A model generated the notes under the pieces. That model saw only the letters and a program-made list of their open reading frames with translations, was not told where the DNA came from and made no database searches. This document shows, piece after piece, positions 9,685 through 24,141 of a stretch of 64,000 nucleotides of DNA. This DNA comes from Actinomycetota bacterium (GTDB taxonomy: Bacteria > Actinomycetota > Actinomycetes > Streptosporangiales > Streptosporangiaceae), in assembly GCA_027313705.1 (NCBI GenBank), contig DAHVDE010000027.1:1-64000 (forward strand), written 5' to 3'. The first letter of the stretch is position 1; each line of letters starts with the position of its first letter. The position numbers and the translations under genes were made by a program.

Positions 9685-11040
9685 ATGAGCAGCAGCCAAG
9701 ATTCGCCGGCCTGGCAGAATCCCGAGCAGCGTACCCCGCCTGTACAGCCGCCTCCGCCGCCGCCGCCTCCGCCGGCCGGGTTCCCTGACAGTGCGGGCTG
9801 GACCGTGCCGGCTCCCGGGTACCAGCCAGATGGCCCTGACTGGATCGGCGACCAGCACCGGCCGGGCGGGCCAGGCTGGCCCGGGTACCCGTACCCGCCC
9901 GCGCCGCCTGGCGCCACAGGAGGCCAGCGGGGACGGCGGACCAGGCGCAGCCTGGCCGTCGCCGTGGTGGCTGCCGCGGTCGGCGCGGCCACGGCCTTCT
10001 ACGGGTTGCATCACGCGGGGAGCAGCCCCGGCGGCGCGGTCCTCACGACCGCGCAGGTGGCGAGCAAGGTCGATCCGGCGCTCGTTGACATCAACACCAC
10101 CCTCGGCTACCAGCAAGAGAAGGCGGCTGGCACCGGCCTGGTGCTGACATCCTCAGGCGAGATCCTCACCAACAATCACGTCATAGAAGGCGCTACCTCG
10201 ATCACCGCCACCGACATCGGTAACGGCCGGACTTACCAGGCCAGGGTGGTCGGCTATGACCGCAGTCACGACATCGCCGTGATCAAGCTGCAGAATGCGT
10301 CCGGGCTCGCCACTGTCACGCTCGGGTCATCAGCGACGGCGCAGCCTGGCCAGCGGGTCGTCGCGATCGGCAACGCGGGCGGCAAGGGCGGCACGCCGTC
10401 GGTCGTGACCGGTCACATCCTGGCGACCAATGCCTCTATTACCGCCTCAGACGCCTCGGCGGGCACCTCGGAGCACCTGAGCAGCCTGATCAAGCACAGC
10501 GCGCCGATCCAGCCAGGTGATTCCGGCGGACCGCTCGTCAACACTTCAGGCGCGGTCATCGGCATCGACACGGCCGCCTCGACCAGCGATTTCCTGATCG
10601 AGGGGCAGGCCGCGCAGACCCAGGCCTACGCGATCCCGATCGATGAGGCCATCTCGATCTCGAAGCAGATCGACGCGGGCAAGAACTCGGCGCAAGTGCA
10701 CATCGGCACTACCGGTTTCGTCGGGGTCTCGGTCGAGTCCGCGCAGCAGGCCGCCCAGATGGGCGTGCCGGCAAACGCGGGCGCACTGATCGTCGGCATC
10801 GTGTCAGGTTCGCCCGCGCAGGCGGCCGGGTTCAGCCCCGGTGACCTGATCACCTCGGTTGACGGCCACGCCGTCACCTCGTCGCTCAGCCTCCAGCAGG
10901 TGCTCGAGCAGCGCCACCCAGGCGACCGGGTGACGATCGGCTGGACCAGCGGCCAGTTGCGGTACGGCGGCCAGTACTGGACCAGCCTTGGCAGCCATCA
11001 CACGACGACGGCCACGTTGACCTCCGGCCCAGCGGGGTGA
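9685..11040 (+). CDS. HtrA/DegP-like S1C serine protease with PDZ domain
   Basis: A 451-residue membrane-anchored protease. ATG 9685 is preferred, with AGGGAG nine bases upstream, over an in-frame GTG at 9628. The layout is a cytosolic proline-rich tail with a run of nine prolines, one transmembrane helix (about 89-109), a trypsin-like domain and a C-terminal PDZ domain (about 335-430). The catalytic triad is H165 (NNHVIEG), D196 (SHDIAVIK) and S280 (PGDSGGPLV). The active site is predicted to face outward, for quality control or signalling cleavage of envelope proteins. It is convergent with gltX and separated from it by a strong hairpin. Confidence 0.92.
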   Translation: MSSSQDSPAWQNPEQRTPPVQPPPPPPPPPAGFPDSAGWTVPAPGYQPDGPDWIGDQHRPGGPGWPGYPYPPAPPGATGGQRGRRTRRSLAVAVVAAAVGAATAFYGLHHAGSSPGGAVLTTAQVASKVDPALVDINTTLGYQQEKAAGTGLVLTSSGEILTNNHVIEGATSITATDIGNGRTYQARVVGYDRSHDIAVIKLQNASGLATVTLGSSATAQPGQRVVAIGNAGGKGGTPSVVTGHILATNASITASDASAGTSEHLSSLIKHSAPIQPGDSGGPLVNTSGAVIGIDTAASTSDFLIEGQAAQTQAYAIPIDEAISISKQIDAGKNSAQVHIGTTGFVGVSVESAQQAAQMGVPANAGALIVGIVSGSPAQAAGFSPGDLITSVDGHAVTSSLSLQQVLEQRHPGDRVTIGWTSGQLRYGGQYWTSLGSHHTTTATLTSGPAG

Positions 11041-11053
11041 GCGACCCGAATGC

Positions 11054-11086
11054 GGCCAGGGCCAGGATCAGATCCTGGCCCTGGCC
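11054..11086. terminator. Perfect 16-bp inverted repeat at convergent gene ends
   Basis: GGCCAGGGCCAGGATC (11054-11069) and its exact complement (11071-11086) are separated by one base. The right arm encodes the last five residues (ARARI) of gltX and the left arm abuts the protease stop. There is no T-tract. It probably ends transcription from both sides. Confidence 0.7.
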
Positions 11087-12489
11087 GCCGTTATCCGTTC
11101 CATCGTCCGCTTCCGCCCGAGAACCTCAAGCGACTCGAACAGCGGCAGTCCGGTCGTCCGGCCGGTTACCGCCACCCTGACCGGCGCCTGCGCCTTGCCG
11201 AGCTTCAGGTCGAACCTGGCGCCCGCGTCCTCGACCGCTGTCCTGATCGAATCTGCCTGCCAGGGAATGCCAGCGAAGCTGCCGGCAACCGAGTCAAGCA
11301 TCCCTGCCGCCGTGACGGCTGCCTGACCCGTCATGGTTTTGGTCCACGAGGCCTCGTCTTCGGCAGGCTCGTCGAGGAACAGGAAGTCCACGCTGGGTAC
11401 AATCTCGGACATGACGCCGACCCTGGTCTGCGCCAGCGGTGCCACCGCGGCGTAGACCTCGGCGCTGAACGCCTCTGGCCGCCAGGGCGCGCCAGGCGAG
11501 CTGAGCCAGGGAGTGCTTCTCGCGATGAACTCCTCCGCTGGCAGCGCCCTGATGTAGTCGCCGTTGATAGCCCGCATTTTCTTCACGTCAAAAAAGGCGG
11601 GTGAAAGGTTGACCTGGTCAAGGCGGAACTCCTCGACCAGCACCGGCCAGGGCAGGATCTCGCGGTCGCCAGCGGGCGCCCAGCCGAGCAACATGAGGTA
11701 GTTGCGCATGGCCTCGGCGAGATAGCCCTCGTCGCGGTAGGCCTCAAGGGCCACCTTGTCCCTGCGCTTGGACAGTTTCTGGCGCTTGTCGTTCACCAGG
11801 ACAGGCAGGTGCGCCCACACCGGAGTCTCGTAGCCGAGCGCTTCCCAGATCATCTGCTGTTTCGGCACGTTGGACAGGTGCTCTTCGCCCCTGATGACGT
11901 GGGTGATCCGCTGGTCGATGTCGTCGACCACGTTCGCGAGCAGGAAGAGCACCGAGCCGTTTGCCCTGGTCAGGGTGAAGTCGTCGATTGCGGCGTTGTC
12001 GAAGGGGATCGTGCCCCTGATCAGGTCAGTGACCACCGTGCTGCCTTCGTCAGCGGTGCGGAACCGCAGTGCGCGTCCTGCCCCCTGCCCGAGCCCCAGG
12101 TCGCGGCAGAAGCCGTCGTAGCCCTTGTGCTCGTCGCCGGTCCTGGCCACGACCTGCTCGCGGGTGCAAGCGCAGTAATAGGCGAGTCCCTTGGCGATCA
12201 GCTGCCCGGCGGCGGCTTCGTGCTTGTCCGTGTTCGCCGACTGGAACACGGGGCCTTCGTAGCCGCTTCGGTCCATGCCGAGCCAGGCCATCGCGCTGAT
12301 AATTCCCTCTGTCCATTCTGGACGGTTGCGCGAGGCATCGGTATCTTCGATCCGCAGTACGAAGGCACCGCCACGCTGCTTGGCGAAGGCCCAGTTGAAC
12401 AGGCTCGTCCTGGCTGAACCGACGTGGAACATGCCGGTCGGCGAAGGGGCGAACCTGACCCTCACATCTGGCTCAGGTGAGATCGTCAC
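11068..12489 (-). CDS. gltX: Glutamyl-tRNA synthetase
   Basis: A 473-residue class I aminoacyl-tRNA synthetase that charges tRNA-Glu. The HIGH-like signature is FHVGSAR (H22-S25), the KMSKS-like loop is KLSKR (238-242), and the family element [11 protein letters not shown] is at 44-54. The length matches the usual 470-490. [10 protein letters not shown] (106-115) followed by later Cys and His residues recalls the zinc-binding insertion. Start ATG 12489. Its last codons form one arm of the terminator hairpin shared with the opposite protease gene. Confidence 0.96.
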
Positions 12490-12733
12490 GTGCAGAGGCT
12501 ACCGTGCGCTGCAGATAGTAAGCGAAGGCAATGATCGACTAACGGTGTGCCTCGGTCGCGTAACCCGCCACCAGCCTGACCTGCGACCTGACCTTGCTCA
12601 TCGAGGCCGCTCTCACGACCCGGTACTCATCGACCTGGCGGACAGCACACTTAGGCTCGGTGACGGCGCGCTCAGCGTGGAAGTCAAGGCTTGACGCCGG
12701 CGATCGGCTAGCCTGCACCAAGGGGTGCATGAC
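12490..12733. other. Intergenic region, no convincing gene
   Basis: Region between divergent gltX and the DUF3048 gene. Short fragments such as DPVLIDLADSTLRLGDGAL on the plus strand look protein-like but have no start and are interrupted, so they may be a faint remnant. TTGACG at about 12690 could belong to the DUF3048 promoter. No tRNA-like structure was seen. Confidence 0.3.
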
Positions 12734-13756
12734 ATGCGGGTTAGCCATCCCGCGCTCATCGCGGGAATCAGTCTTGCCGTTTGCCTGGCGGCCGGTGTTG
12801 CCGTCTACCTAGCGCTGAGCGGCGGCAAACAGGCTCCTGCCAGGCGGACCACCGCCTCTGCGGCGCCGACCGCGACCGTGCCGAAGCTCTACTCTCCCTT
12901 CACCGGTGAGCCAATCTCTGGACTCGGCCCTGAGCTGATCTTCAAGATCGACAATGTGCCGCAGGCGAGACCGCCGACCGGACTTACCGAGGCCGACATC
13001 GTCTACTTGCTGCCGGTCGATGGCGGGCTCTCGCGCATTTTCGCGGTCTTCTCCTCGCACATCCCGCCGGTCGTCGGTCCGGTACGCAGCGCACGCGCCG
13101 AGGATCTGCAGCTGCTCAGGCAGTTCGGCAAGCCGGCCTTCGCCTACTCTGGGGCGCAGCCCAGGCTTCTGCCAGTAGTCGAGCACGCGCACATCGTCGA
13201 CTTGTACGCCGGGATCGCTGGCGGCTACTACCGTGATCCGCGCCGGATGGCGCCGTACAACCTCTACGCCAGGACCAAGGTGCTGCTTTCCGAGGCCAAG
13301 GGCGAGAGCAGAGCAAGTGACATCGGATTCGTGTTCGGCCAGGCTCCGGCTGGCGGCCAGCCGGTCAAGTCCTACAGCGTCTCCTACCCAGCTGCCAGGT
13401 TTACTTTCCGCTGGTCAGCCAGCCAGCACCGGTGGCTGTCCTGGATGGACGGCAGCCGGGCACGTGCGGCGCAGGGCGGTCAGCTTGGCGGGGCGACCGT
13501 GGTAATACAAGACGTGGTGGTGGGCGCTTCGCATTTCCGTGAGCTGGGCATCAAGCCGCCTTATGCCAGTACCGTCGGCAGCGGCACGGCGGTAGTACTC
13601 AGGAACGGACGGATCTATCACGTCCGCTGGGCCAGGCCAATGGCCTCGGCGGGAACCAGTTTCACGCGCGCGAACGGCAAGCCGATGCCATTCGCGCGCG
13701 GTCAGGTCTGGGTGATACTCGCCTACGGACCGGGCTCGGTCGTCAATGGAGGCTGA
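12734..13756 (+). CDS. DUF3048 (YerB-like) cell-surface protein
   Basis: A 340-residue protein with an N-terminal signal anchor (HPALIAGISLAVCLAAGVAVY) and two DUF3048 modules. The first has PLTG-like YSPFTGEPISGLG, FKIDNVPQARPPTGL, ADIVYLLPVDGGLSRIFAVF and VGPVRSARAEDL. The second has GGATVVIQDVVV and the C-terminal WARPMASAGT with GQVWVILAYGPG. YerB-like proteins are exported and of uncertain role. The second cysteine-free signal suggests a membrane anchor, not a lipoprotein. ATG 12734 is preferred with AAGGGG eight bases upstream; GTG 12725 overlaps that site. Confidence 0.85.
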   Translation: MRVSHPALIAGISLAVCLAAGVAVYLALSGGKQAPARRTTASAAPTATVPKLYSPFTGEPISGLGPELIFKIDNVPQARPPTGLTEADIVYLLPVDGGLSRIFAVFSSHIPPVVGPVRSARAEDLQLLRQFGKPAFAYSGAQPRLLPVVEHAHIVDLYAGIAGGYYRDPRRMAPYNLYARTKVLLSEAKGESRASDIGFVFGQAPAGGQPVKSYSVSYPAARFTFRWSASQHRWLSWMDGSRARAAQGGQLGGATVVIQDVVVGASHFRELGIKPPYASTVGSGTAVVLRNGRIYHVRWARPMASAGTSFTRANGKPMPFARGQVWVILAYGPGSVVNGG

Positions 13757-13842
13757 CCAGGTTCGGCCGCCGCCGGGCTAGACGATTAGGGGTTCCTGTC
13801 GTCTAATACGGCTGGCCGCCTGCGGGCGCATCGTGCGGGGGT

Positions 13843-13860
13843 CCGGGGGTCGCCCCCCGG
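13843..13860. repeat. GC-rich hairpin, CCGGGGG stem
   Basis: CCGGGGG (13843-13849), loop TCGC, CCCCCGG (13854-13860). It forms the first of two consecutive hairpins downstream of the DUF3048 gene. Such GGGGTCCGGGGG elements are common in actinobacterial intergenic DNA. Confidence 0.5.
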
Positions 13861-13871
13861 GCTGGCGCGGG

Positions 13872-13903
13872 CAAGATGATGTGCCTGCGGGCACATCATC
13901 TTG
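13872..13903. terminator. Perfect 14-bp hairpin with TGCG tetraloop
   Basis: CAAGATGATGTGCC (13872-13885), loop TGCG, GGCACATCATCTTG (13890-13903). With the preceding GC hairpin it could terminate the DUF3048 transcript. It is less GC-rich than most local hairpins, so it may be a mobile repeat. Confidence 0.55.
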
Positions 13904-13910
13904 TCGGTTT

Positions 13911-14003
13911 CCGTATCACATGCGACACTCTCAGTGTTCATCGATACGGACCGCAATTGACCGGACGAAGTGTTGACTACAAGACGGTCTCGATCGATAC
14001 GAT
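13911..14003 (+). promoter_or_regulatory. Dyad and putative promoter before the redox/FHA/antiporter/kinase operon
   Basis: TCCGTATC and GATACGGA form an 8-bp dyad around 13911-13950, with ACACT-CTC-AGTGT nested inside it. Downstream, TTGACT (13973-13978) and TACGAT (13998-14003) resemble -35 and -10 boxes with a long 19-base spacer. The first gene starts at 14040. Regulator unknown. Confidence 0.35.
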
Positions 14004-14039
14004 CTGCACACCTATCCACGCGTGAACCCAGGGGCGGGA

Positions 14040-15671
14040 ATGACAAACACGCCAGACCTACCTGGCTCGATCGATCCTTCGATGCCAGCAACGATCATGC
14101 GCTCGCGGCCAGCAAAGCCGGCCGCGAGCGCGGAGCAAGGTGCGGCCCCTGGCTCCGGTGATCTCACTGACGAACTGCTGAATACAGACCAGTGGACCGA
14201 TGCGATGATCCAGCGTGCTGGCATCCCGGTCGCCGACATACCATTCGTGTCGATTGGCGGGGGAATCGGCTCCTTCGTTACGGTGGACTACCTGCGGATC
14301 GCCGGGGTGCCGGCTAACCGGATGCACGTGCTGTCTAACCTCGACTTTCCCTGGCAAACCTACGAGTACCTGACCAGGGTCTCGCAGATCCCCAGGCCAG
14401 AGCGGATCAGGTCAGACTCGGCGTCGCGCCCGGACAATATCTGGGGTTTCCCTTCTTATGCGCTTACCGAGGCGTTTAAGGAGGGGAACTGGGCCGAGCT
14501 TTGGCATGTTTTCGCCGAGCCGATGTGGGCCGACTTCTATACGCCCAAGGCCGGCCGCGTCTTCGAAGGCCTCGAGCGCGAGGCCAAGCGCATCGGCTGG
14601 CATCAGATGCTGGTCAAGGGCCAGGTCAGGATGGTACGCAAGCGCCAGGGGGGCGGATACTTCATCATCTTGACGCCGAAGGCGGGCGCGACACCGACTA
14701 AGCGAGTTGCCTATCGTGCCGAGTACGTGCATCTCGCGGTGGGATATCCGGGGTTGCGGTACCTGAAAGAACTTCAGGATTTCCGCACCAAGCACCAGGA
14801 CTACCACCACGTCGTCAGTGCCTACGAGGAGCACGAGCACATCTACGAGGCGGCGCGGACCAAGCCGGTCACGGTGATGCTGCGCGGCGGCGGGATCGTG
14901 GCTTCCCGAGTACTGCAGCGGATCATGGATGACCGGGAGAAGTACGGTACCCAGACCCAGATCGTGCACCTGTTCCGCACGTTCATCGACGGTCCGCATA
15001 GCCCTAACGAGAAGACGTTGCGCGCCTGGAACAAGCGGTCGGGCAGCAATGGCTTCGCCTACCAGGGCTTCAACTATCCTAAGTCAGTCTGGGGTGGCCA
15101 GCTTAAGGCCGAGATGCGCAAGCTCGAAGGCGAAGCCAGGCTGACCAGGTACAAGGAGATGGGCGGCACCAACACGCCCTGGCGCAGGCGCTGGCAGGCG
15201 CAGATGGGCAATGGCCGCCGCGAAGGCTGGTACCACATCATGCAGGCCACCGTGGATGACATGCGGATCGAGGGCGACAAGATAGTCAGCATCGCCAATA
15301 CCAGGAACGGCAAACTGGAGATCCCCGCCGACTACATCATCGACTGCACCGGGCTAGAGGCCGACATTGCCGAGCACCGCGTGCTCAAGGATCTGCTCGA
15401 CCATTCAGGAGTGGGCCGCAACCCGTATGGCCGGCTTGATGTCGAACGTACCTTTGAGTTGCGCGGGACCGCCAGCGGACCAGGCGTGATCTATGCCTCA
15501 GGCGCGACCACGCTTGGCGGTTACTTCCCCGGCGTCGACACCTTCCTCGGACTCCAGGTTGCCGCCCAGGAGATCTGCGACGACCTGGCCAGGCGCAGGT
15601 TCTGCAAGAAGATCGGCACGTTCCGCTCGATCTCCCAGTGGATCAAGTGGGCGCGTAACAAGCAGCCGTAG
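14040..15671 (+). CDS. FAD/NAD(P)-binding Rossmann-fold oxidoreductase, unknown substrate
   Basis: A 543-residue protein, first gene of a compact five-gene unit. Two dinucleotide-binding signatures are visible: FVSIGGGIGSFVTVDYL (about 69-85) and VMLRGGGIVASRVLQRI (about 279-295). Near the C-terminus are DYIIDCTGLEADI and VIYASGATTLGGYFPGVDTF, which look like the closing part of an FAD or NAD(P) fold. No redox-active CxxC is seen. The sequence is charged and probably cytosolic or peripheral. ATG 14040 has AGGGG upstream; GTG 14022 is the alternative. I cannot name a pathway. Confidence 0.7.
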   Translation: MTNTPDLPGSIDPSMPATIMRSRPAKPAASAEQGAAPGSGDLTDELLNTDQWTDAMIQRAGIPVADIPFVSIGGGIGSFVTVDYLRIAGVPANRMHVLSNLDFPWQTYEYLTRVSQIPRPERIRSDSASRPDNIWGFPSYALTEAFKEGNWAELWHVFAEPMWADFYTPKAGRVFEGLEREAKRIGWHQMLVKGQVRMVRKRQGGGYFIILTPKAGATPTKRVAYRAEYVHLAVGYPGLRYLKELQDFRTKHQDYHHVVSAYEEHEHIYEAARTKPVTVMLRGGGIVASRVLQRIMDDREKYGTQTQIVHLFRTFIDGPHSPNEKTLRAWNKRSGSNGFAYQGFNYPKSVWGGQLKAEMRKLEGEARLTRYKEMGGTNTPWRRRWQAQMGNGRREGWYHIMQATVDDMRIEGDKIVSIANTRNGKLEIPADYIIDCTGLEADIAEHRVLKDLLDHSGVGRNPYGRLDVERTFELRGTASGPGVIYASGATTLGGYFPGVDTFLGLQVAAQEICDDLARRRFCKKIGTFRSISQWIKWARNKQP

Positions 15672-15752
15672 GCGTTTGCCTGCCGTGACATCGCCTGAGG
15701 CAGCAGGTCGCCGTGCGGCCGGATTGACGTCTTTTCCGATAGGAGGAATCAA

Positions 15753-16196
15753 GTGCTACCCACACTGGGCGGCCGGATCCAGAGCCGGATCGTTTTTCTC
15801 GCCATCATTGGCGGGATCATCACGCTGATCCTCACGCCCATCCTTCCGCTGGGCAGCGGGGCGCTGAGCGCTAAGTACAAGACGACGTTCCTGATCCTTC
15901 TTACCGTCATCGTGCTGGGCGTGATCTGGGAGTTCATTTACCATCTCATCATGCAGTGGCGCTGGGAGAAGGACTGGCCAACGTTCTTCGGGCTCGTCAC
16001 GCTTATTAATGAGGGAGTCGTTGTCTATCTTCTAGCGGACTACGGCATCGTGCCTGGTATTAAGGCGCATTCGGTTCCGCTCAGCGCGTTCCTCATCGAC
16101 TTCCTGGTGATCTGGATCTGCGTCTGGCTTTGGGTCAACGGGCCGATGCGGGTGGTAAACGTCAGGTGGCGGTTCCACGGCGGGAGGCTAGTGTGA
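15753..16196 (+). CDS. Small polytopic membrane protein
   Basis: A 147-residue protein with four predicted membrane helices (about 14-36, 44-66, 78-97 and 110-130), separated by short polar loops. GTG 15753 follows a strong AGGAGG site. It shows no motif I recognise. Its position between the nucleotide-binding oxidoreductase and the FHA protein, with its stop overlapping the next start by four bases (GTGA), suggests it anchors or partners those products at the membrane. Confidence 0.75.
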   Translation: MLPTLGGRIQSRIVFLAIIGGIITLILTPILPLGSGALSAKYKTTFLILLTVIVLGVIWEFIYHLIMQWRWEKDWPTFFGLVTLINEGVVVYLLADYGIVPGIKAHSVPLSAFLIDFLVIWICVWLWVNGPMRVVNVRWRFHGGRLV

Positions 16197-17626
16197 GCGA
16201 TCCAGGTTCAGCGGGCAGTGGTCATTCGCCTGGGCTCTGGCCAGTGCCCGGCGAGGGGGTACTTGCCAGGCACGGCAACCTGATCCTGCTCAGCAGCCTG
16301 GAGCAAGGTCAGATCGTGGACATGCTGCTTGACTTGCTTGAGCAGACCGCGGCGGCTGGCGGAGACGGGCGGCAATTCGCTGATCAGATCGCCGCGGTGC
16401 TCGAAAACGTCGAGACAGGTGAGGGCGGGCCTGGTCTTTCCGTGCTCGCGTTCGGCGCGGCCGGATCTGGCATGGCTGTGACCGTGGGCGGTGGCGCCTG
16501 GGCGGACGTGACCACCGCGCACGGGACCGCGCGGATCGCGGCCGGGCAGCCGGGCATGTTGCTGCGCTGCCTGCTGCGGTCACCGGTGAGCATGGTCAAC
16601 GGCGGCCTGAACGCGGCAGTTGCCGGTCCGGCGAGCACCGACAGGTTCTCCAGGCTGGACGCGGGCACGGTCAGGGCGAACGGGCTCAGCTTCTACACCG
16701 GCGTTGCGATGACCGGCGGCTATGCCTACCAGCCCGCCGTGCAGGTGCAGCCGCCTCAGGTTCAGCCGGTGCCACAGCCCCAGCCGGTCGTTCCGCCCCA
16801 GGTCGTGCCCCAGCCCCAGGTCGTGCCCCAGCCGCAGGTCGTGCCCCAGCCGCTGGTCGCGCCGCCGTCGCCTGCCGTTCTGGCCGGCACAGAGCGCTGG
16901 CAGGAACCGCCGCCGCGGCCTGCCCCTGAGCCTGTGCCCCAGCCAGGGCCCGCTCCCGTGCCCCAGCCAGGACCGCGCGGTGGCCTGCACCAGGCAGCCG
17001 TGCAGCCCTTCGCCCAGGACGCCGAGTCTTTCGAGTCGATTCTCCTGGTTAACCCGAACGACGGCGGGCCCGCCGATCTGGGCGTCGAGCAGCGAGTGCC
17101 GCTGGCCAAGGCCAGGGACGTTCCGGCGGGCACGAGCAGTTATTCATCAGAAGCGCCGATCATCCAGGGTGTCTACTGTAAGAACGGGCATTTCGATGAT
17201 CCAGAGGCGCTGTTCTGCGCCGTGTGCGGGATTTCGATGAACCAGCAGACGCTGATCAACCGCCCGGGCACCAGGCCGCCGCTTGGCGTGCTCTTGCTCG
17301 ACGACGGCTCGGTGTTCCAGCTGGACCGTGACTACGTTGTCGGCCGCGAGCCGGGCCTGGACACCTCTGTCGCCTCGGGCCGGTCACGGGCGCTGCGCAT
17401 CGCCGACGACTCGGGCATCGTGTCCCGTGTGCACGCGAAGGTGGCGCTAGACGGCTGGCGCGTGCTTGTCACCGACCTCGGCTCGGCCAACGGCACCAGG
17501 GTCAGGCTGCCGAAGAACGGCGGGGAGCAGGTGCTTGCACCGCATCAGCCATTCGTGCTCACCACTGGAAGCCAGGTGGACCTGGGCGGACGCGGCTTCA
17601 GGTACGAATCGCACCGCGGTCGCTGA
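16193..17626 (+). CDS. Zinc-ribbon and FHA-domain protein with proline/glutamine linker
   Basis: A 477-residue protein with GTG 16193 overlapping the previous stop. An N-terminal globular domain (about 15-170) of unknown family recalls PP2C-like folds, with GLSVLAFGAA and MAVTVGGGAW strands. A Pro/Gln/Val linker follows (about 180-262), built from repeats of PQPQVV. A ribbon-like motif has C329-x3-H333 and C342-x2-C345. The C-terminal FHA domain (about 379-465) carries VVGRE, the phosphothreonine-binding S411-x2-H414, and SANGT. FHA domains read phosphothreonine, and a kinase is encoded in the same operon. Confidence 0.85.
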   Translation: MSDPGSAGSGHSPGLWPVPGEGVLARHGNLILLSSLEQGQIVDMLLDLLEQTAAAGGDGRQFADQIAAVLENVETGEGGPGLSVLAFGAAGSGMAVTVGGGAWADVTTAHGTARIAAGQPGMLLRCLLRSPVSMVNGGLNAAVAGPASTDRFSRLDAGTVRANGLSFYTGVAMTGGYAYQPAVQVQPPQVQPVPQPQPVVPPQVVPQPQVVPQPQVVPQPLVAPPSPAVLAGTERWQEPPPRPAPEPVPQPGPAPVPQPGPRGGLHQAAVQPFAQDAESFESILLVNPNDGGPADLGVEQRVPLAKARDVPAGTSSYSSEAPIIQGVYCKNGHFDDPEALFCAVCGISMNQQTLINRPGTRPPLGVLLLDDGSVFQLDRDYVVGREPGLDTSVASGRSRALRIADDSGIVSRVHAKVALDGWRVLVTDLGSANGTRVRLPKNGGEQVLAPHQPFVLTTGSQVDLGGRGFRYESHRGR

Positions 17627-17665
17627 CGAGCAGTTGAACACCCACTTGACTGTCAGGATGCCGGG

Positions 17666-19753
17666 ATGACCGATCAACAAATTCAGCTCCTCCTCGCTGA
17701 CATCGCGCTGATCATGGTCCTGGCTCGCCTGCTCGGCATGGCCGCGAAGCGGATCGGCCAGCCGCCGGTCATCGGCGAGATCGTCGCCGGCATCCTGCTC
17801 GGGCCGACGCTGTTCAACGGCTGGATCACCACGCACCTGTTCCCTGCGCCGATCGTCCCGCCGCTGACCGCGCTTGCTGACATCGGCCTTGCGCTGTTCA
17901 TGTTCGTGGTCGGCTACGAGGTTGACCTGGCCCTGGTCAGGGGGAGAGAAAAGGTTGCCGCCGGGGTTGCGCTCGGCTCGATCTTCTTGCCCCTCATTCT
18001 CGGCATCGGCCTCGGCATCTGGCTTGCGGCCCGGGTACACGCCAAGGATCACTTCACGTTCGTCTTGTTCTTTGGCGTCGCGATGTCGATCACGGCATTT
18101 CCTGTGCTCGCGCGCATCTTGACCGACCGCGGCCTGCACCGCACCAGGATCGGCGGTCTCGCGCTTGCCGCTGCCTCGGTGGATGACCAGCTCGCCTGGA
18201 TCTTGCTGGCCGTCGTGGTGGCGATCGCCAGCTCGAGCAGCGGCCACGCGATCAGGCTGGCCTACTCGCCCCTCTATGCCGCGCTGCTGATCTTCGTGGT
18301 GCGCCCGGTGCTGCGCCGGCTAGCCGATGCGTATCAGAAGCAGGGCAAGCTCACCGCGAACGTGCTCGCCTCGATCCTGATCCTCCTGCTGCTATCCGGC
18401 TGGGCCACCGACTACATGGGCGTGAAGTTCATCTTCGGCGCGTTCATTTTCGGCATCCTCATGCCGAGGAACGTGCCGGCGTTGCGCCTGGCCATTTTGG
18501 ACCGGCTCGAGCAGGTGACGGTCCTGCTGTTCCTGCCGGTCTTCTTCGTGATTGCCGGCTTGGGCGTGAACCTGTCCACGGTTGGCCTGTCCGGGCTCGG
18601 TTACCTTATTCTGATCATGGTCGTCGCCGTGGCGGGCAAGTTCGGCGGCGCGTACTACGGCGCCAGGTTCACTGGAGTCAGGCGCAGGCAGGCGGGTGCG
18701 CTTGCCGCGCTCATGAACACCCGCGGCCTTACCGAACTGGTCATCTTGACCATCGGTCTTTCGCTCGGCATCCTCAACACGGAGCTGTATTCGCTGATGG
18801 TCGTCATGGCGATCGTCACCACCGCGATGGCGGGACCGCTGCTGCGGTACATCTACCCGAACCAGATCATGGAGCGGGATATCACTGAGGCCGACCGTGC
18901 CGCGATGGGACGAGCGGGCGCGCACCGCGTCGTGGTGCTTGTCGACGACCCGGCGGCGGCCGGTCCGCTGGTCGACCTGGCCGTCCAGCTTGCGGCGAGC
19001 CGCGCGAACAGCGAGGTCGTCCTCTGCCACCTGGTCGCGCACGAGCCAGGATCACGGCTTGAGATGGGCGGCGGCCTAGGCGGTGAGCTCGTCCAGATCA
19101 CCGAGACGATGGACAGCCTGCACACGCTGGCGGCACGCGGCGCGCCTCGGGGCGTGCCGGTACTTGTCCAGGCCAGGTTCAGCGACGATGTCGCCGCCGA
19201 GTTGCCCGGTTACATTTCCGCGGCCGACCCTGACACCATCGTGCTGTGCCGGGGCGCCGCGTCACCAGGCGAGCTAAGCCCGAACGCGAAGGCGCAGGTG
19301 GTCATGCTCAGCAAGCCGCTGCCCGAGCGCCCGTCCGCTGCCGTGGCCTACTGCACCAGGGGGCCGGATTCCGACGCCGCCCTGCAAGTCGCGGCCAAGC
19401 TGGCGGTCACCGACCGGATCGGCCTCATGCTTACCCCCTCGGGCAGGCCGGCGAATGGCCGGGTTGCCGATCTGGCCAAGCGCGGCCTGACGGCCACGAC
19501 GGGAACTCCGCCCGCAGGCAGCGTCGTTGTAGGACCAGCCGATCTGCTTGCCCTGCCAGCCGGGGCGAACGCGATGGTGCCTGAGCCCCGCGCCGCGGCG
19601 CCAGCAGCGGCCGGAACTAGGTCGGTGCGCCATGATAGTGGCGATGTTGATCTCCACGTTGCTGTCATAGCCGGCAGCAACGAGGCAAGTGACGATATGG
19701 ACCAGTGGGTAGAAGCGCTCGACGGGCCTAAGCAGCTGGAGGGCAAGCAGTGA
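17666..19753 (+). CDS. CPA2-family cation:proton antiporter with USP-like C-terminus
   Basis: A 695-residue protein. Residues 1-385 form about 12-13 membrane helices of the KefB/NhaP-like CPA2 fold, with GQPPVIGEIVAGILLGPTLF near the start and the conserved helix-5/6 element SVDDQLAWILLAVV. Residues about 410-520 (HRVVVLVDDPAAAGPLVDLA and DTIVLCRG) look like a universal-stress-protein-type nucleotide-binding tail, followed by a second, less clear unit to the end. It should exchange K+ or Na+ for protons. The stop overlaps the kinase start by four bases, so the two are translationally coupled. Confidence 0.9.
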   Translation: MTDQQIQLLLADIALIMVLARLLGMAAKRIGQPPVIGEIVAGILLGPTLFNGWITTHLFPAPIVPPLTALADIGLALFMFVVGYEVDLALVRGREKVAAGVALGSIFLPLILGIGLGIWLAARVHAKDHFTFVLFFGVAMSITAFPVLARILTDRGLHRTRIGGLALAAASVDDQLAWILLAVVVAIASSSSGHAIRLAYSPLYAALLIFVVRPVLRRLADAYQKQGKLTANVLASILILLLLSGWATDYMGVKFIFGAFIFGILMPRNVPALRLAILDRLEQVTVLLFLPVFFVIAGLGVNLSTVGLSGLGYLILIMVVAVAGKFGGAYYGARFTGVRRRQAGALAALMNTRGLTELVILTIGLSLGILNTELYSLMVVMAIVTTAMAGPLLRYIYPNQIMERDITEADRAAMGRAGAHRVVVLVDDPAAAGPLVDLAVQLAASRANSEVVLCHLVAHEPGSRLEMGGGLGGELVQITETMDSLHTLAARGAPRGVPVLVQARFSDDVAAELPGYISAADPDTIVLCRGAASPGELSPNAKAQVVMLSKPLPERPSAAVAYCTRGPDSDAALQVAAKLAVTDRIGLMLTPSGRPANGRVADLAKRGLTATTGTPPAGSVVVGPADLLALPAGANAMVPEPRAAAPAAAGTRSVRHDSGDVDLHVAVIAGSNEASDDMDQWVEALDGPKQLEGKQ

Positions 19754-20589
19754 ACAGCACGGACGCGCAACTCGCGGTCGAACGGCCGGGCATTGCCGAT
19801 TACCAGTTCATCAGGGTGCTCGGCAAGGGCAACCACGGCGTGTTCTACCTGGCGGGTCGTCCTGAGCGGTTGCGGATCGACGCCGAGTACGTCGCCGTGA
19901 AAGTGCTGAGCGGGTCCAACAGCCAGGACACGTTCCGCCGTGCTACCCGCGAGCTTGCCGCGTTCGCGGCGGTCAGGTCCCGGTACCTGGTGACGCTGTA
20001 CGACGCAGGCCAGCAAGGCGATGATCTTTATTATTCGATGGAATACCTGCCAGCAGGCTCGCTGGCGGATGCCGCAGGTTCCTTGCGGCCGCGTGATGCG
20101 CTGGCCGCTGTCGCCGACGCCGCTCGTGCCGCCCATGCGCTGCACGAGGCGGGGATCGCGCACAACGACATCAAGCCAGGCAACGTCATGCTGCACGACG
20201 ACGGTGCCAAGCTCAGTGATCTTGGCCTTAGCCAGTTGCTCACCCCTGGCCTCACGATCACCGGGCTCGGCTCGGCCGGATCGGTCGAGTACCTGGACCC
20301 GGCGATCATCAGGGGCGAGATGCCGTCCCGTGCCACCGACATCTTCGCGCTCGGTGCCACTTTGCACCGCGCGATGAGCGGCACCGGCCTGTACGGGGAA
20401 CTGCCTGCCGATAACACGATGGTCGCGATGCGCCGGGTGCTCGGTCATCCCCCGGCGATCTCAGAGAGGCTGGCAGCGAAGGTGCGGGACGTGATCGCGG
20501 CGGCGATCGATCCTAACCCCGCGGCCAGGCCCAACACGGCGGCGGAGTTCGCCGATCGGGTGGACGCCCTCGCGGCGTCAGCCGGCTAG
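19750..20589 (+). CDS. Soluble Ser/Thr protein kinase with atypical catalytic motifs
   Basis: A 279-residue kinase domain with no membrane helix. The glycine loop is GKGNHG (25-30), the ATP-anchoring lysine is K51 (VAVKV) and the helix-C Glu is probably E68. The catalytic loop reads HNDIKPGN (138-145) in place of HRDLKPxN, and the metal-binding motif is DLG (157-159) in place of DFG. The catalytic Asp140, Lys142 and Asn145 are kept, so activity is likely. It is a non-RD-type kinase and probably not activated by activation-loop phosphorylation. Translational coupling to the antiporter and the nearby FHA protein suggest a local phospho-signalling unit. Start GTG 19750. Confidence 0.88.
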   Translation: MNSTDAQLAVERPGIADYQFIRVLGKGNHGVFYLAGRPERLRIDAEYVAVKVLSGSNSQDTFRRATRELAAFAAVRSRYLVTLYDAGQQGDDLYYSMEYLPAGSLADAAGSLRPRDALAAVADAARAAHALHEAGIAHNDIKPGNVMLHDDGAKLSDLGLSQLLTPGLTITGLGSAGSVEYLDPAIIRGEMPSRATDIFALGATLHRAMSGTGLYGELPADNTMVAMRRVLGHPPAISERLAAKVRDVIAAAIDPNPAARPNTAAEFADRVDALAASAG

Positions 20590-21455
20590 CTGTAGGGCGG
20601 GGGAGAACCGGACAGCGAAGCCGGCCTGGCCGGATTGCCGGTCAGCGCGAAGACGATCAGGTAGGTCAGCGTGGCCGCGCCGATGATGCAGAAACTCGGC
20701 GGCAGCGTCGGTGCCGCGTAGGCGATGAGCAGCCCGGCCCACAGCGATCCAACCGCGATGCCCGCTGACAGCCACAGAGCAGCGAACGGCCTGGCCGTCA
20801 GCCGCTGGGCGGCTCCGGCCGGGGCCGCGATCAGCCCGAGCAGCAGTAGCGCGCCGACGGCCTGAGTAGCGGCCGCTGCGGTGACTCCGACCATGCCGAG
20901 GAAGATGAACCCGAGCGCACGCACCGGAACCCGGCTGGCGCTCGCAACCGCGGCGTCGATGCTGGCGAACAGCAACGGCCTGCCGATCGCGATGATTACT
21001 ACGCAGACCCCGAGACAGACCGCCGCGTCGGTGATCGCCTGGCTAGCCGACAGCCCGAAGATGGTGCCGAACAGCACGTTGACGCCGCTGGTGCCGTTGC
21101 TGCCCGACTTAGATGTCGTATACACGCTCAGGAACAAGGCGCCGAGGCCGAGGATCCAGGCGAACACGCTGCCGATCACGGTGTCGTCGGATTGACCCCT
21201 GTTGCCAAGCGCGGCCATCGCGAGCGCGACCACGATGCAGGCACCGTACAGGCCGACGAGGAGGTCAGCCCCGGTCGCGAGAGCGGCAACCGCACCTGTG
21301 AAGGCCACGTGGCTGAGTGCATCCCCGGTGAACACTTGTGAGCGCAGGACGATGAAGTAACCGACTAGCCCGGCCGCGAGGGCGATGGCGGTACCCGCGA
21401 AGAACGCGTACCGCAGGAATGGCTGCGAGTAAATATGGGTGATCCAGACAATCAT
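20586..21455 (-). CDS. Metal ABC transporter permease (second of pair)
   Basis: A 289-residue integral membrane protein of the ZnuB/MntB ABC-3 family. ATG 21455 is chosen because it overlaps the upstream permease stop as ATGA; the longer frame is polar and unlikely. About eight to nine helices are visible, starting PFLRYAFFAGTAIALAAGLV. The family loop DALSHVAFTGAVAA is near residue 46, and GVTAAAATQAVGALLLLGLI lies in the second half. It pairs with the other permease to form the pore of the importer. Its stop shares the CTAG with the stop of the opposite kinase gene. Confidence 0.9.
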   Translation of the reverse strand: MIVWITHIYSQPFLRYAFFAGTAIALAAGLVGYFIVLRSQVFTGDALSHVAFTGAVAALATGADLLVGLYGACIVVALAMAALGNRGQSDDTVIGSVFAWILGLGALFLSVYTTSKSGSNGTSGVNVLFGTIFGLSASQAITDAAVCLGVCVVIIAIGRPLLFASIDAAVASASRVPVRALGFIFLGMVGVTAAAATQAVGALLLLGLIAAPAGAAQRLTARPFAALWLSAGIAVGSLWAGLLIAYAAPTLPPSFCIIGAATLTYLIVFALTGNPARPASLSGSPPPYS

Positions 21456-22345
21456 GCCGTCACCGCCTGGAGCCCGACCTTCCTGACCCGGCTCGCCGCG
21501 GCCCGGCCGCCAGCGGCGGCCACGTAGCTGACGAAACCCAGCGTGGTGAGGTAGAACCCGAATGGGTACTCGGGGTAGAAGTAGGCGATCGCCAGTCCCA
21601 GCCACGCGATGAGCAGCCCGCAGGCGATGGTCAGCGCGAAGCTGAGCGCCGGCCTGGGCGTGATTTGCTGCGCGGTGGCGGCGGGCATGACCAGGAGGGC
21701 GAATACGAGCAGGGCACCAGTGATCTGACTGACCTCTCCGGCCGCGCAGCCGAGCAGGACCAGGAAGGCGGTCCCGACAAACCGGACAGGCACCCCGCGT
21801 GCCTCCGCGACATCCGGGTCCACGGTGGCGAAGAACAGCGGCCGCGCGATCGCCGCGAGCGCGGCGAGTGCCACCGCCGCCACTACGAGCAGCGTGAGTA
21901 CCTGTGCGGGCGAGATGCCGAGGAAGGTTCCGAACAGCAAGTTGGTGAGGCTGTTGAGGAAGCCGCCGTACAAGCTCACGAACAGCGCACCGCAGGCAAG
22001 CGCGAAGGCCTGCACGGTGCCGATGACCGCAGACTCGCTGCTGCGGGCCTTGCCGCCAAGCGAGCGGGGCACCGCCGCGATCACGATCGCGGCGGCGATC
22101 GCCGCCACGAAATAACCCGCGCTCGCGCTGGCGCCGAGCAGGATCGCCCCGGCGGCGCCGGGAAACGATACGACCGCCAGCGTGTGCCCGGCGAACGACT
22201 GCCTGCGCAGCACCATGTACCAGCCGAGCGCCCCGGCTAGCACGGCGATGATCGTGCCAGCGCGGTAGGCGTTCACCATGAAGGAGTAGAGGAACAACTG
22301 CCTGAAGTCCTCGGCCAGGTTCCAGCTAAGGCCCGTGTTCACCAC
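21452..22345 (-). CDS. Metal ABC transporter permease (first of pair)
   Basis: A 297-residue ZnuB-type permease starting at GTG 22345, which overlaps the ATPase gene end by seven bases. It has eight or more helices, the loop GHTLAVVSFPGAAGAILLG and the second-half segment VSQITGALLVFALLVMPAAT typical of ABC-3 permeases. Having two different permease genes suggests a heterodimeric pore. The tail after residue 275 is basic and cytosolic. Confidence 0.9.
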   Translation of the reverse strand: MVNTGLSWNLAEDFRQLFLYSFMVNAYRAGTIIAVLAGALGWYMVLRRQSFAGHTLAVVSFPGAAGAILLGASASAGYFVAAIAAAIVIAAVPRSLGGKARSSESAVIGTVQAFALACGALFVSLYGGFLNSLTNLLFGTFLGISPAQVLTLLVVAAVALAALAAIARPLFFATVDPDVAEARGVPVRFVGTAFLVLLGCAAGEVSQITGALLVFALLVMPAATAQQITPRPALSFALTIACGLLIAWLGLAIAYFYPEYPFGFYLTTLGFVSYVAAAGGRAAASRVRKVGLQAVTA

Positions 22346-23211
22346 TGCTGCGCCGGAACGCTTGACGGTTCGCCGTGCCGGTCGGTGTGCCTGGCCGGCG
22401 CCTCGGGCTCGCCGACTACCACAAGCCGGCCGTCAGATGCCCTGAGCACCTCGACTGGCGTGCGGTAAAGCTCGCTCAGGATCTCTGACCTGATCACCTC
22501 GTCAGGAGTGCCGCAGACCGCGCCGCCCCGCGCGACGTAGGCGACCCGGTCCAGGTAGGGCAGGATCGGGTTGACGTCGTGCGCGACCAGCATGACGGTC
22601 ACCTTATGCTCGCGGCAGATCCGCGAGATGAGCGCGGCTACCGCTGCCTGGCTCGGCAGGTCGAGACTGTCGAGCGGCTCATCGAGCACGAGCAGTCGCG
22701 GACGCCTGACCAGGGCCTGTGCGATCAGGAGGCGCTGCTGCTCGCCACCGGAGACTTGGCCGATCGGCCGGTTAGCGAACGTGGTGGCACCGACCAGCTC
22801 GATGACTTCCCTGATCCGTTCGGCCGCCGCGCGCCTGGAAGAAAGGAACCTGGCGCCGAACGGCAGGGGCAGGCCCCACCGCTCGCCATGACTGCCGAGG
22901 GCGACGATATCGACACCGCGCACCCGCAGGCCGGCATCGAAGTTCCTGCGCTGCGGCAGGTAGCCGATCTGCCTCCCGGCCTGGCCGGCGGGCAGGCCGA
23001 GCACGGTTACCGAGCCCGCGGACAGCGCGACTAGCCCGAGTGCGGCCTTGACCAGCGTGGACTTGCCTACGCCGTTTGGGCCGAGCACGGCAAGGAACTC
23101 ACCCTGCGCGACCGCGAGGTTCACCTCTGACCAGATCACGCGGCCGCCAGCGGTGGCGGCCGCGTGGCTGAACCGCACCGCGCTCTGCGCGGTCTCACCC
23201 GTTTCGCACAT
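22339..23211 (-). CDS. Metal ABC transporter ATPase
   Basis: A 290-residue ABC ATPase of the ZnuC/MntB type. Walker A is GPNGVGKST (about 44-52), the signature is VSGGEQQR, Walker B is LLVLDEPLDSLD, and the switch His is in MLVAHDVN. It powers the two adjacent permeases. Start near 23211, three bases after the binding-protein gene, fits co-transcription. The C-terminal tail after residue 255 is polar and contains two His-Asp/His-Gly pairs. Confidence 0.93.
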   Translation of the reverse strand: MCETGETAQSAVRFSHAAATAGGRVIWSEVNLAVAQGEFLAVLGPNGVGKSTLVKAALGLVALSAGSVTVLGLPAGQAGRQIGYLPQRRNFDAGLRVRGVDIVALGSHGERWGLPLPFGARFLSSRRAAAERIREVIELVGATTFANRPIGQVSGGEQQRLLIAQALVRRPRLLVLDEPLDSLDLPSQAAVAALISRICREHKVTVMLVAHDVNPILPYLDRVAYVARGGAVCGTPDEVIRSEILSELYRTPVEVLRASDGRLVVVGEPEAPARHTDRHGEPSSVPAQQW

Positions 23212-23214
23212 CGG

Positions 23215-24141
23215 CTATCTTCCCGTCGCAATCGCGAGCGCCGCAGCGATCCCCCTGAGCTGTCTTACCTGCCAGGCCTGGTAGGTGTCGCCAGGCGGCG
23301 CGAGCGTTTCCGTGATCGTGGTCACCGGGATGCGCGCCGTCCTGGCCAGGTCCAGCTGGGTACGAACGTCCGGGGTAACGTTCTGGCTGTTGTAAACGTA
23401 GATCTTGATCAGGTGATGCGTGATCTGGTAGTCAATAGCCTGCTTGTCAGCGGCGGAGACCTCGGTGCCCTCGCTGATTGCCTTGAGGAACGAGGACGGC
23501 GTGATCAGCCGCAACCCAAGCGCTGGCGCCAGCATGGCGAAGATCGACTCCGAGGCCCCCACAGGCACTCCGAGGTATTTTTGCCGGATCGTAGCGATAA
23601 GCAGGTGATACTGGCGCAGGGCTACGGTGTTGAACCACGTCCGCCGCCGGGCGAAATAGGCACTGTCCGCCGGGTCGAGCTTGCTGTAATCGGTGACTAG
23701 CTGCGTGATCACCTTCTGCACATCCGCCGGGTTGTACCAGCGATGCGGGTTAGCGCCGACGCCGACGCCGACGACGTTGCCGACATTGAGCACGGTCTGC
23801 GTCGCACCGTCCGCCGCGAGCAGGTCGGCCGCCCACGGGTCATAGCCGATGCCGTTCTCGATCACCAGCTGGGCTGCGGCAATGACCTTGGCGTCGTCGA
23901 CGGTCGGCTCGTAGCTGTGCGGGTCGGTATTCGGATTAGTGATGATGCTGGTCACGCTGACGTGCCGGCCGCCGATCTGGCTCGCTATGCTGCCCCAGAA
24001 GTTCTCCGCCGCGACCACGGTGATCAGCCGGCTGGTGGCGGGGGCGAAGGTCCCGCCGGCGGTACTGCACGCGGTCGCCGTCACCGCAGCCATCGCCGTC
24101 GTGACGACACGCGCGATCAGGCGGACGCTCAAGCGCGGCAC
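23215..24141 (-). CDS. Metal-binding lipoprotein of the ZnuA/TroA family
   Basis: A 308-residue solute-binding lipoprotein with a signal peptide and lipobox (TATAC, C25). Probable metal ligands are H75 (TDPHSYEP), H133 (ANPHRWYNP), E198 (GASESIF) and E278 (ITETLAPPG). A His-His-Glu-acid set is the pattern of Mn/Fe-type TroA/PsaA proteins, whereas ZnuA normally has a third His. No His-rich loop is present. GTG 24141 has AAGGAG upstream. It is the first gene of the importer operon and lies 44 bases downstream of a Zur-like box, so the metal is left open between Zn and Mn. Confidence 0.88.
   Translation of the reverse strand: MPRLSVRLIARVVTTAMAAVTATACSTAGGTFAPATSRLITVVAAENFWGSIASQIGGRHVSVTSIITNPNTDPHSYEPTVDDAKVIAAAQLVIENGIGYDPWAADLLAADGATQTVLNVGNVVGVGVGANPHRWYNPADVQKVITQLVTDYSKLDPADSAYFARRRTWFNTVALRQYHLLIATIRQKYLGVPVGASESIFAMLAPALGLRLITPSSFLKAISEGTEVSAADKQAIDYQITHHLIKIYVYNSQNVTPDVRTQLDLARTARIPVTTITETLAPPGDTYQAWQVRQLRGIAAALAIATGR

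Follow-up and report, generated by a model that had tools for sequence, protein, structure and literature searches.

Two sources describe KefC, of the Kef systems of glutathione-gated K+ efflux (KefC-KefF and KefB-KefG), as requiring its oxidoreductase partner for full activity (PMC10224563, PMC11150392). KefC is also described there as carrying a QD motif and as being electroneutral (PMC11150392), and glutathione is stated not to be made by most Gram-positives (PMC10224563). In the mycobacterial system PknF-Rv1747, the phosphorylated Thr237 of a universal stress protein is reported to bind the FHA I domain of Rv1747 (PMC5549992). Here we compare with these systems a set of five genes from an actinobacterium of the Streptosporangiaceae, found in a stretch of 64,000 nucleotides (the window; contig DAHVDE010000027.1 of assembly GCA_027313705.1). 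The genes code for a predicted flavoprotein (OXR), a small membrane protein (MEM), a protein with an FHA domain (FHA), an antiporter (CPA) and a kinase (STK), and are laid out as follows, with one upstream neighbour.

OXR, 14040..15671, + strand: open frame of 543 aa; predicted FAD/NAD(P)H flavoprotein of an unnamed family
MEM, 15753..16196, + strand: open frame of 147 aa; four-helix membrane protein of an unnamed family
FHA, 16193..17626, + strand: open frame of 477 aa; ribbon and C-terminal FHA domain
CPA, 17666..19753, + strand: open frame of 695 aa; cation/proton antiporter with a cytosolic tail resembling universal stress protein (USP-like)
STK, 19750..20589, + strand: open frame of 279 aa; PknB-like Ser/Thr kinase, kinase domain only
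GTGA overlap of MEM stop and FHA start, 16193..16196, + strand: read in the sequence
GTGA overlap of CPA stop and STK start, 19750..19753, + strand: read in the sequence
DUF3048 gene, 12725..13756, + strand: upstream neighbour and boundary, outside the unit; a DUF3048 gene also directly precedes FHA in the same-genus genomes G001 and G002

Together the five genes make up a genuine unit, unnamed and widely conserved far beyond the genus. Judged from their sequences they probably form one signalling-and-transport system. An earlier note on this DNA, which had proposed the unit, knew of no named system with this composition, and our literature searches, which had subscription papers outside their scope, likewise found none.

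Conservation and rearrangement of the unit

Three sets of genomes were searched: 120 related genomes (set 1), a class-wide sample of 394 that partly overlaps the first (set 2) and 84,980 species genomes scanned with OXR (set 3). The last gave 288 confirmed stretches, and the locus counts below come from the best 80 of these, a sampling by which distant members are under-represented. The best 80 are all from Actinomycetota and span eight named orders, and OXR-carrying records include Pimelobacter simplex and strains of Nocardioides, Thermomonospora and Streptosporangium. MEM follows OXR directly in all 80 fetched loci. Adequate flank, defined as at least 1.5 kb before and at least 7.5 kb after OXR, was available for 67 loci, and in these MEM and FHA are always found (67/67), CPA is found in 63, STK in 64 and all five genes in 62. 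The earlier note had stated that rare adjacency elsewhere would mark the unit as coincidental, and this proposal came through the check. Two of the incomplete loci appear to be so by flank or assembly, CPA and STK lying together about 14 kb away in L074 and CPA lying on a different contig in L081; L066, L101 and L107 also fall short of five genes within the flank. When the called genes of the 80 loci were clustered, OXR was recovered in 79, CPA in 64, FHA in 49, STK in 48 and MEM in 33, short genes being missed by this approach, and the next most frequent families reached at most 26 loci.

The smaller sets agree. OXR is present in 16 of the 120 genomes of set 1 (17 matches less G007, a 31% fragment at E 7.6e-4) at 19 places, with MEM adjacent at every one; the twentieth MEM match is a domain fused into an FHA protein. 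CPA orthologues occur in 14 genomes, all within the 16 that carry OXR (hypergeometric 1.8e-16), and STK orthologues in 16 genomes, 14 of them with OXR (hypergeometric 2.1e-14), values to be read in the light of related genomes not being independent and of CPA and STK cut-offs having been set after the scores were viewed. STK is found without OXR in G001 and G004, and OXR without STK in G005, on a 10-kb contig, and in G016. Set 2 has OXR in 24 genomes (25 less G152, at E 4e-4) and MEM in 23 of them; in the exception, G428, which is 63% complete, the OXR match ends at position 475 of the model, where the contig probably ends too.

Gene order is far from constant. The layout is collinear as in the window in 14 loci; CPA is inverted between FHA and STK in 29; STK is divergent before OXR, with CPA convergent at the end, in 14 (Nocardioidaceae and one metagenome-assembled genome of Propionibacteriales); STK precedes CPA in eight loci of Micromonosporaceae; and CPA lies upstream in one. 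An apparent order OXR-FHA-MEM in four loci was rejected as an artefact of automatic start choice, which draws frames too far upstream; for that reason the MEM-FHA and CPA-STK distances derived from it are unreliable and play no part here. A quick OXR tree of 66 loci plus the window (67 rows; the other 14 of the 80 were excluded as having one or more genes missing from the available DNA) requires at least six changes of layout, this being a gene tree in which transfer is not separated from descent. Because the clustering persists through so many changes, the five-gene set is, as the layouts indicate, kept together by selection and is not merely an inherited operon; often it is not one operon at all. 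CPA stands on the strand opposite OXR-MEM-FHA in 43 of the 67 loci in which CPA was located, which makes a shared transcript impossible there, so that the single transcript envisaged in the earlier note cannot be upheld as a general rule.

Departures from the full set were sought by six-frame searches of 20 further regions, most of them picked as unusual. The G005 contig carries OXR-MEM-FHA without CPA or STK; G216 has OXR-MEM and a weak FHA match (83 bits), and orthologous CPA and STK were not found; G032:C4 has OXR-MEM-FHA-CPA, with STK not found; and G282 and G209 have all five. FHA without OXR was seen in stretches of G001, G002, G004, G009, G060 and G112. The same-genus genomes G001 (81% complete) and G002 have DUF3048-FHA-STK and DUF3048-FHA, respectively, and neither has an OXR, MEM or CPA orthologue, so that FHA-STK and OXR-MEM-CPA behave there as two sub-modules. 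The same-genus loci L135 (2-3484) and L143 (5961-8273) show DUF3048-FHA(-STK) with no OXR, MEM or CPA orthologue, and may represent what window 12725-20589 looked like when empty or in its ancestral form. Lone paralogous OXR-MEM pairs lie in L136 (8051-10198) and L137 (7296-9404), with no FHA, antiporter or kinase match nearby. An FHA orthologue in L145 (5674-14466) is adjacent to an M50/CBS peptidase gene and has a proteasomal-ATPase gene close by; L132 (2722-4485) has near OXR-MEM a 587-aa gene of the same size as that peptidase gene.

In the window itself the sequence bears out the earlier note's account of a single strand with GTGA overlaps at two junctions and short gaps elsewhere (81 nt between OXR and MEM, 39 nt between FHA and CPA). 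MEM, FHA and STK are each preceded by a purine-rich stretch resembling a ribosome site, as judged by eye. A promoter scan returned no sigma-70-type promoter and six terminator-like sites, where shuffled sequence gave 2.7 on average, the sigma-70 and terminator models being uninformative for a high-GC actinobacterium, and there was no Rfam match in window 10000-24000. Downstream of STK lie convergent ABC-3 permease genes, and the STK stop codon shares 4 nt with the end of one of them (20586-20589). Carriage on a mobile element was considered and rejected, since a tblastn search of plasmids with OXR matched one record only, an 11.85-Mb Nonomuraea replicon that is a chromosome by its size.

The five proteins

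OXR is predicted to contain two Rossmann domains and carries the motifs GGGIGS, RGGGIVAS and DCTG. Neither the window protein nor its relatives reach any Pfam or NCBIfam cut-off; among 37 sequences including that of the window, Trp_halogenase appeared in two (E 0.0017 at best) and an NCBIfam reductase in one (E 0.0066), and neither single-sequence nor profile searches found a PDB match. The AlphaFold2 model (pLDDT 79.8, pTM 0.80) falls below a pLDDT of 50 at residues 1-36 and 330-352. Foldseek placed the ornithine/lysine N-hydroxylases SidA and PvdA at the top (E about 1e-17, 11-15% identity), and VIA-align placed first the bacillithiol disulfide reductase YpdA (Z 25.1-25.6; rmsd 2.9 over 318 at Z 25.6), with the N-hydroxylases behind at Z of about 21-24 (3s61: Z 23.7, rmsd 3.7 over 379). 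The 50 VIA matches listed are two-Rossmann FAD/NAD(P)H proteins at Z 19.9-25.6, and the fold predicted for OXR is that of the N-hydroxylases and YpdA. The model has the two dinucleotide-binding domains of flavin N-hydroxylating monooxygenases, a fold shared with other families. No Cys of OXR is invariant, C436 being nearly so, and this counts against a dithiol mechanism. Residues 338-356 (GFAYQGFNYPKSVWGGQLK) are invariant at 18 of 19 positions in the 37-sequence alignment, and more variable among divergent members in another OXR alignment; being invariant yet poorly modelled, this loop suggests an element whose structure may depend on a partner or substrate. Thr43 belongs to the motif GDLTxxL, between the disordered tail and the start of the folded domain. 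With retention in 82% of 80 sequences, it is the best-conserved candidate phosphothreonine site.

MEM is modelled as four long helices (pLDDT 86.9). Seven basic residues are invariant (R8, R12, R70, K73, R133, R140 and R145) and by the positive-inside rule would face the cytosol; H64 is the sole near-invariant His, and there is no invariant Cys. No Pfam or NCBIfam cut-off is reached, 41 relatives giving isolated matches only, none better than E 0.0045, and single-sequence and profile searches of the PDB found nothing. Foldseek returned nothing at E<=0.001 and the best VIA match (Z 5.5, rmsd 6.5 over 99) is uninformative, as expected of a helical bundle. A Csx18 identity was rejected as a chance match (18.6 bits with PADLOC and 15.5 with NCBIfam, whose cut-off is 50).

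FHA consists of an N-terminal domain without a Pfam match, a Pro/Gln-rich linker, a CxxxH...CxxC ribbon and a C-terminal FHA domain (Pfam FHA, 34.6 bits against a cut-off of 20.7). The ribbon residues C329-H333-C342-C345 are present in all 74 of the 77 orthologues that have letters there, and no zinc-ribbon model of Pfam or NCBIfam matched; of the earlier note's 'zinc ribbon', then, the conserved ligand pattern stands and assignment to a model does not. The phosphothreonine pocket of FHA domains is marked by the motifs GR, SRxH and NG. The corresponding residues R385, R412, H414 and N433 show no exception among the 73-74 of 77 orthologues with letters at these positions, and S411 is kept in 72 of 73. 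By its pocket residues FHA would thus qualify as a phosphothreonine reader. FHA matches, weak ones included, occur in 47 of the 120 genomes of set 1, against 16 for OXR. In three FHA proteins (G065:C20, G221:C6 and G314) a MEM-like domain scoring 54-64 bits is inserted between the N-terminal domain and the ribbon/FHA end, and the same loci have genes for OXR and for a free-standing MEM. Of all the sequence evidence, this fusion speaks most clearly for a contact between MEM and FHA. Divergent OXR-MEM-FHA paralogue clusters with a fused FHA lie in L129 (8246-12110), L130 (7939-11785) and L131 (6203-10457). The neighbours in L131 match MbtH, two MFS transporters, two methyltransferases, DUF6875 and FG-GAP, those in L129 and L130 are similar in size, and these clusters are possibly biosynthetic.

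CPA matches Pfam Na_H_Exchanger (PF00999) at 180.8 bits against a cut-off of 26.2, and its tail matches Usp at 21.4 bits, under the cut-off of 24. Across 33 members at E<=0.01, Pfam gave Na_H_Exchanger in 33, Usp in seven, and CwsA and ATPase_gene1 in one each, with no KTN, TrkA or RCK domain in any; nor did RCK_C/TrkA_C match any of the five proteins of the window or the 33 CPA relatives. The structures closest to CPA are those of NapA and, in profile comparison, of KefC, and D173-D174 and K325 align with the DD and Lys of NapA. D174 and K325 are invariant in 67 orthologues. Position 173 is D in 48, I in 16, and V, N and G in one each; Ile occurs in 15 Streptosporangiaceae and one Thermomonosporaceae, where it may change the charge stoichiometry. 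The earlier note had called CPA a CPA2 antiporter: the membrane domain with its transport Asp and Lys was found, and the cut-off of the NCBIfam CPA2 model TIGR00932 was missed (144.4 against 238.3 bits). CPA is therefore termed CPA2-like here, as assigned by nearest structures only.

STK matches Pfam Pkinase at 110.9 bits (cut-off 31.7), with PknB and PknA as closest solved relatives. In the window its HND/DLG catalytic motifs are intact, and the VAVK Lys, alphaC Glu, HxD Asp and DFG Asp that mark Hanks-type Ser/Thr kinases are all present. The Lys, Glu and DFG Asp are kept in 70 of 70 orthologues and the HxD Asp in 61. The Gordonia orthologues (L099, L104, L109, L110, L111, L113, L123 and L128) have Asn in place of this Asp, with the loop Asn replaced by Ser or Ala, and appear by motif to be pseudokinases; L105 has Ala for the catalytic Asp. 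Rescue by a second, intact kinase was rejected, a motif search of ten loci finding another intact HRD kinase only in L128 and L105. The Gordonia FHA proteins retain their pocket residues despite the pseudokinase-type STK. PADLOC matches of STK to anti-phage defence genes (PD-T4-6, mad6 and others) were set aside as kinase similarity. Eight Micromonosporaceae loci (L064, L078, L085, L088, L091, L092, L093 and L098) have a second, larger gene of the Ser/Thr kinase family after CPA, Pfam-scanned in L064 only.

What the unit may do

The reading that we favour, with a probability of about 0.4 for the mechanism as a whole, is that of a membrane-bound redox/ion module assembled by phosphorylation. 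OXR, reduced by NAD(P)H, would dock on MEM, with its invariant loop 338-356 as the predicted site of contact. FHA would be the linker, associating with MEM and binding a threonine that STK or some other Ser/Thr kinase has phosphorylated; the candidate partner is Thr43 of OXR, with the USP-like tail of CPA as another possible one. This binding would couple OXR to the NapA-like antiporter, so that the state of OXR-MEM-FHA would switch cation/proton exchange by CPA, the outcome being a fast adjustment of pH or cations under redox or electrophile stress. The docking, the phospho-site, the phospho-targets, the direction of control and the physiological signal are what we infer here. The earlier note's suggestion that redox or nucleotide status governs the exchange likewise stands as a hypothesis. 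In favour of the module are the persistence of the cluster through rearrangement, the constant pairing of OXR with MEM, the MEM-like domain within three FHA proteins, the joint absence of OXR, MEM and a CPA orthologue from G001, and the conserved residues of the FHA pocket and the CPA ion site; KefC with its oxidoreductase partner and the stress protein bound by Rv1747 serve as precedents.

Several observations weigh against this mechanism. The tail of CPA has no conserved Thr, no column exceeding 38% Thr in 61 tails, and the phosphorylation of the antiporter tail put forward in the earlier note is accordingly disfavoured. The catalytic Asp of STK is gone from nine of 70 orthologues (all eight from Gordonia and L105), so that the kinase's own catalysis is dispensable in some lineages, and Thr43 of OXR is retained in Gordonia alongside an STK without this Asp, which leaves support from covariation absent. 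The fused FHA proteins have, as judged by eye, lost the SRxH and NG pocket motifs. The FHA-STK pair probably serves in assembly of the complex and may be reduced, in some lineages, to a scaffold. OXR-MEM was seen without a match to FHA, CPA or STK within 16-17 kb at G048:C45 and G221:C1, and OXR-MEM-FHA without CPA or STK within 14-16 kb at G016 and G275; OXR-MEM is the most constant part of the unit and can stand alone as paralogous copies. The loci with OXR-MEM alone slightly lower our confidence in the proposed module, and the closest folds to OXR include enzymes that hydroxylate small molecules.

These last points suit a different reading, in which OXR-MEM is a membrane-attached enzyme, N-hydroxylase-like or reductase-like, acting on a small molecule or lipid, with FHA-STK as its regulator and CPA as an auxiliary that deals with H+/cation load or product tolerance. 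SidA, PvdA and YpdA as structural neighbours, the four loci with OXR-MEM alone or with FHA only, and the divergent paralogue in L131, set among methyltransferase, MFS and MbtH matches as in biosynthetic clusters, all favour it; against it, CPA has survived repeated rearrangement in 63 of 67 loci, which is above expectation for an auxiliary, and no sixth family is common to more than 26 of 80 loci. We regard this enzyme as a serious competitor and nevertheless doubtful. The pairing of a flavoprotein having two dinucleotide-binding domains with four-helix MEM in 80 of 80 loci would also fit a non-proton-pumping NAD(P)H:quinone-type point of electron entry, for which CPA would compensate pH or membrane potential; MEM, with one near-invariant His and no invariant Cys, offers no obvious heme site, and such a role seems unlikely. 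Finally, STK-FHA might be a general phospho-regulator that came by chance to have OXR-MEM and CPA as neighbours, the linkage being inherited without a functional unit. The wider spread of FHA homologues than of OXR (47 genomes against 16) and the presence in G001 and G004 of FHA-STK but of none of the remaining three genes speak for this. Inherited linkage is not expected to survive at least six changes of order or orientation in separate families, CPA orthologues occur in the 120-genome set only together with OXR, and some FHA proteins carry a fused MEM-like domain, and we consider coincidence very improbable.

The phospho-assembled module can be stated in a more specific and tentative form: OXR, anchored by MEM, may sense redox state or electrophiles and gate the NapA-like CPA through an FHA scaffold, in some lineages with a pseudokinase, as a new regulatory complex and a glutathione-free counterpart of Kef in actinobacteria. 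If true, this would explain how redox stress is coupled to ions and pH in actinobacteria that lack the glutathione by which Kef is gated, and some of the many orphan kinases and FHA proteins of these bacteria would gain a definite function. OXR and MEM, which are among the most constant of the five proteins, fall within no named family of Pfam or NCBIfam even though OXR relatives were confirmed in 288 stretches, and the existence of named hosts that carry the unit makes direct testing possible.

Comparison with known systems

Flavin N-hydroxylases (SidA, PvdA) and YpdA/Bdr are alike to OXR in predicted fold and unlike it in sequence, with 10-16% identity and no sequence or profile match. To our knowledge no genes for a flavoprotein, an FHA protein or a kinase accompany the plant CHX antiporters, which unlike the unit are eukaryotic. 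The plant cation/H+ exchanger CHX17 resembles CPA in having a hydrophilic tail like a universal stress protein, as its source describes (PMC7573149). KhtSTU and CpeABC share with the unit a Gram-positive antiporter of the K+/H+ type with accessory genes; regulation there is by an RCK_C subunit that binds c-di-AMP, and the accessible text of the source mentions no kinase, FHA protein or flavoprotein (PMC10117811).

The closest parallels are the two systems described at the outset. Kef, like the unit, sets a CPA2-type antiporter beside a flavin oxidoreductase in overlapping genes. Its antiporter has a KTN/RCK domain, whereas CPA has the USP-like tail in its place; its ancillary oxidoreductase, KefF or KefG, is of about 20 kDa, whereas OXR is a two-Rossmann flavoprotein of 543 aa; and its ion-site motif is QD, whereas that of the window CPA is DD, with no Q in the 67 orthologues. 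The unit also exceeds Kef by MEM, FHA and the kinase. PknF-Rv1747 has in common with the unit a Ser/Thr kinase gene adjoining that of a transporter regulated through FHA-phosphothreonine binding, and a universal stress protein (Rv2623) as FHA ligand. It differs in being a two-gene operon with an ABC exporter that has its FHA built in, with no flavoprotein and no separate FHA/ribbon protein; in the window FHA and CPA are separate genes, and no frame in the 80 loci carries both matches. The unit lies outside Kef and PknF-Rv1747 because the tested defining features of both fail, and by analogy it would work most like Kef crossed with PknF-Rv1747 while being a member of neither.

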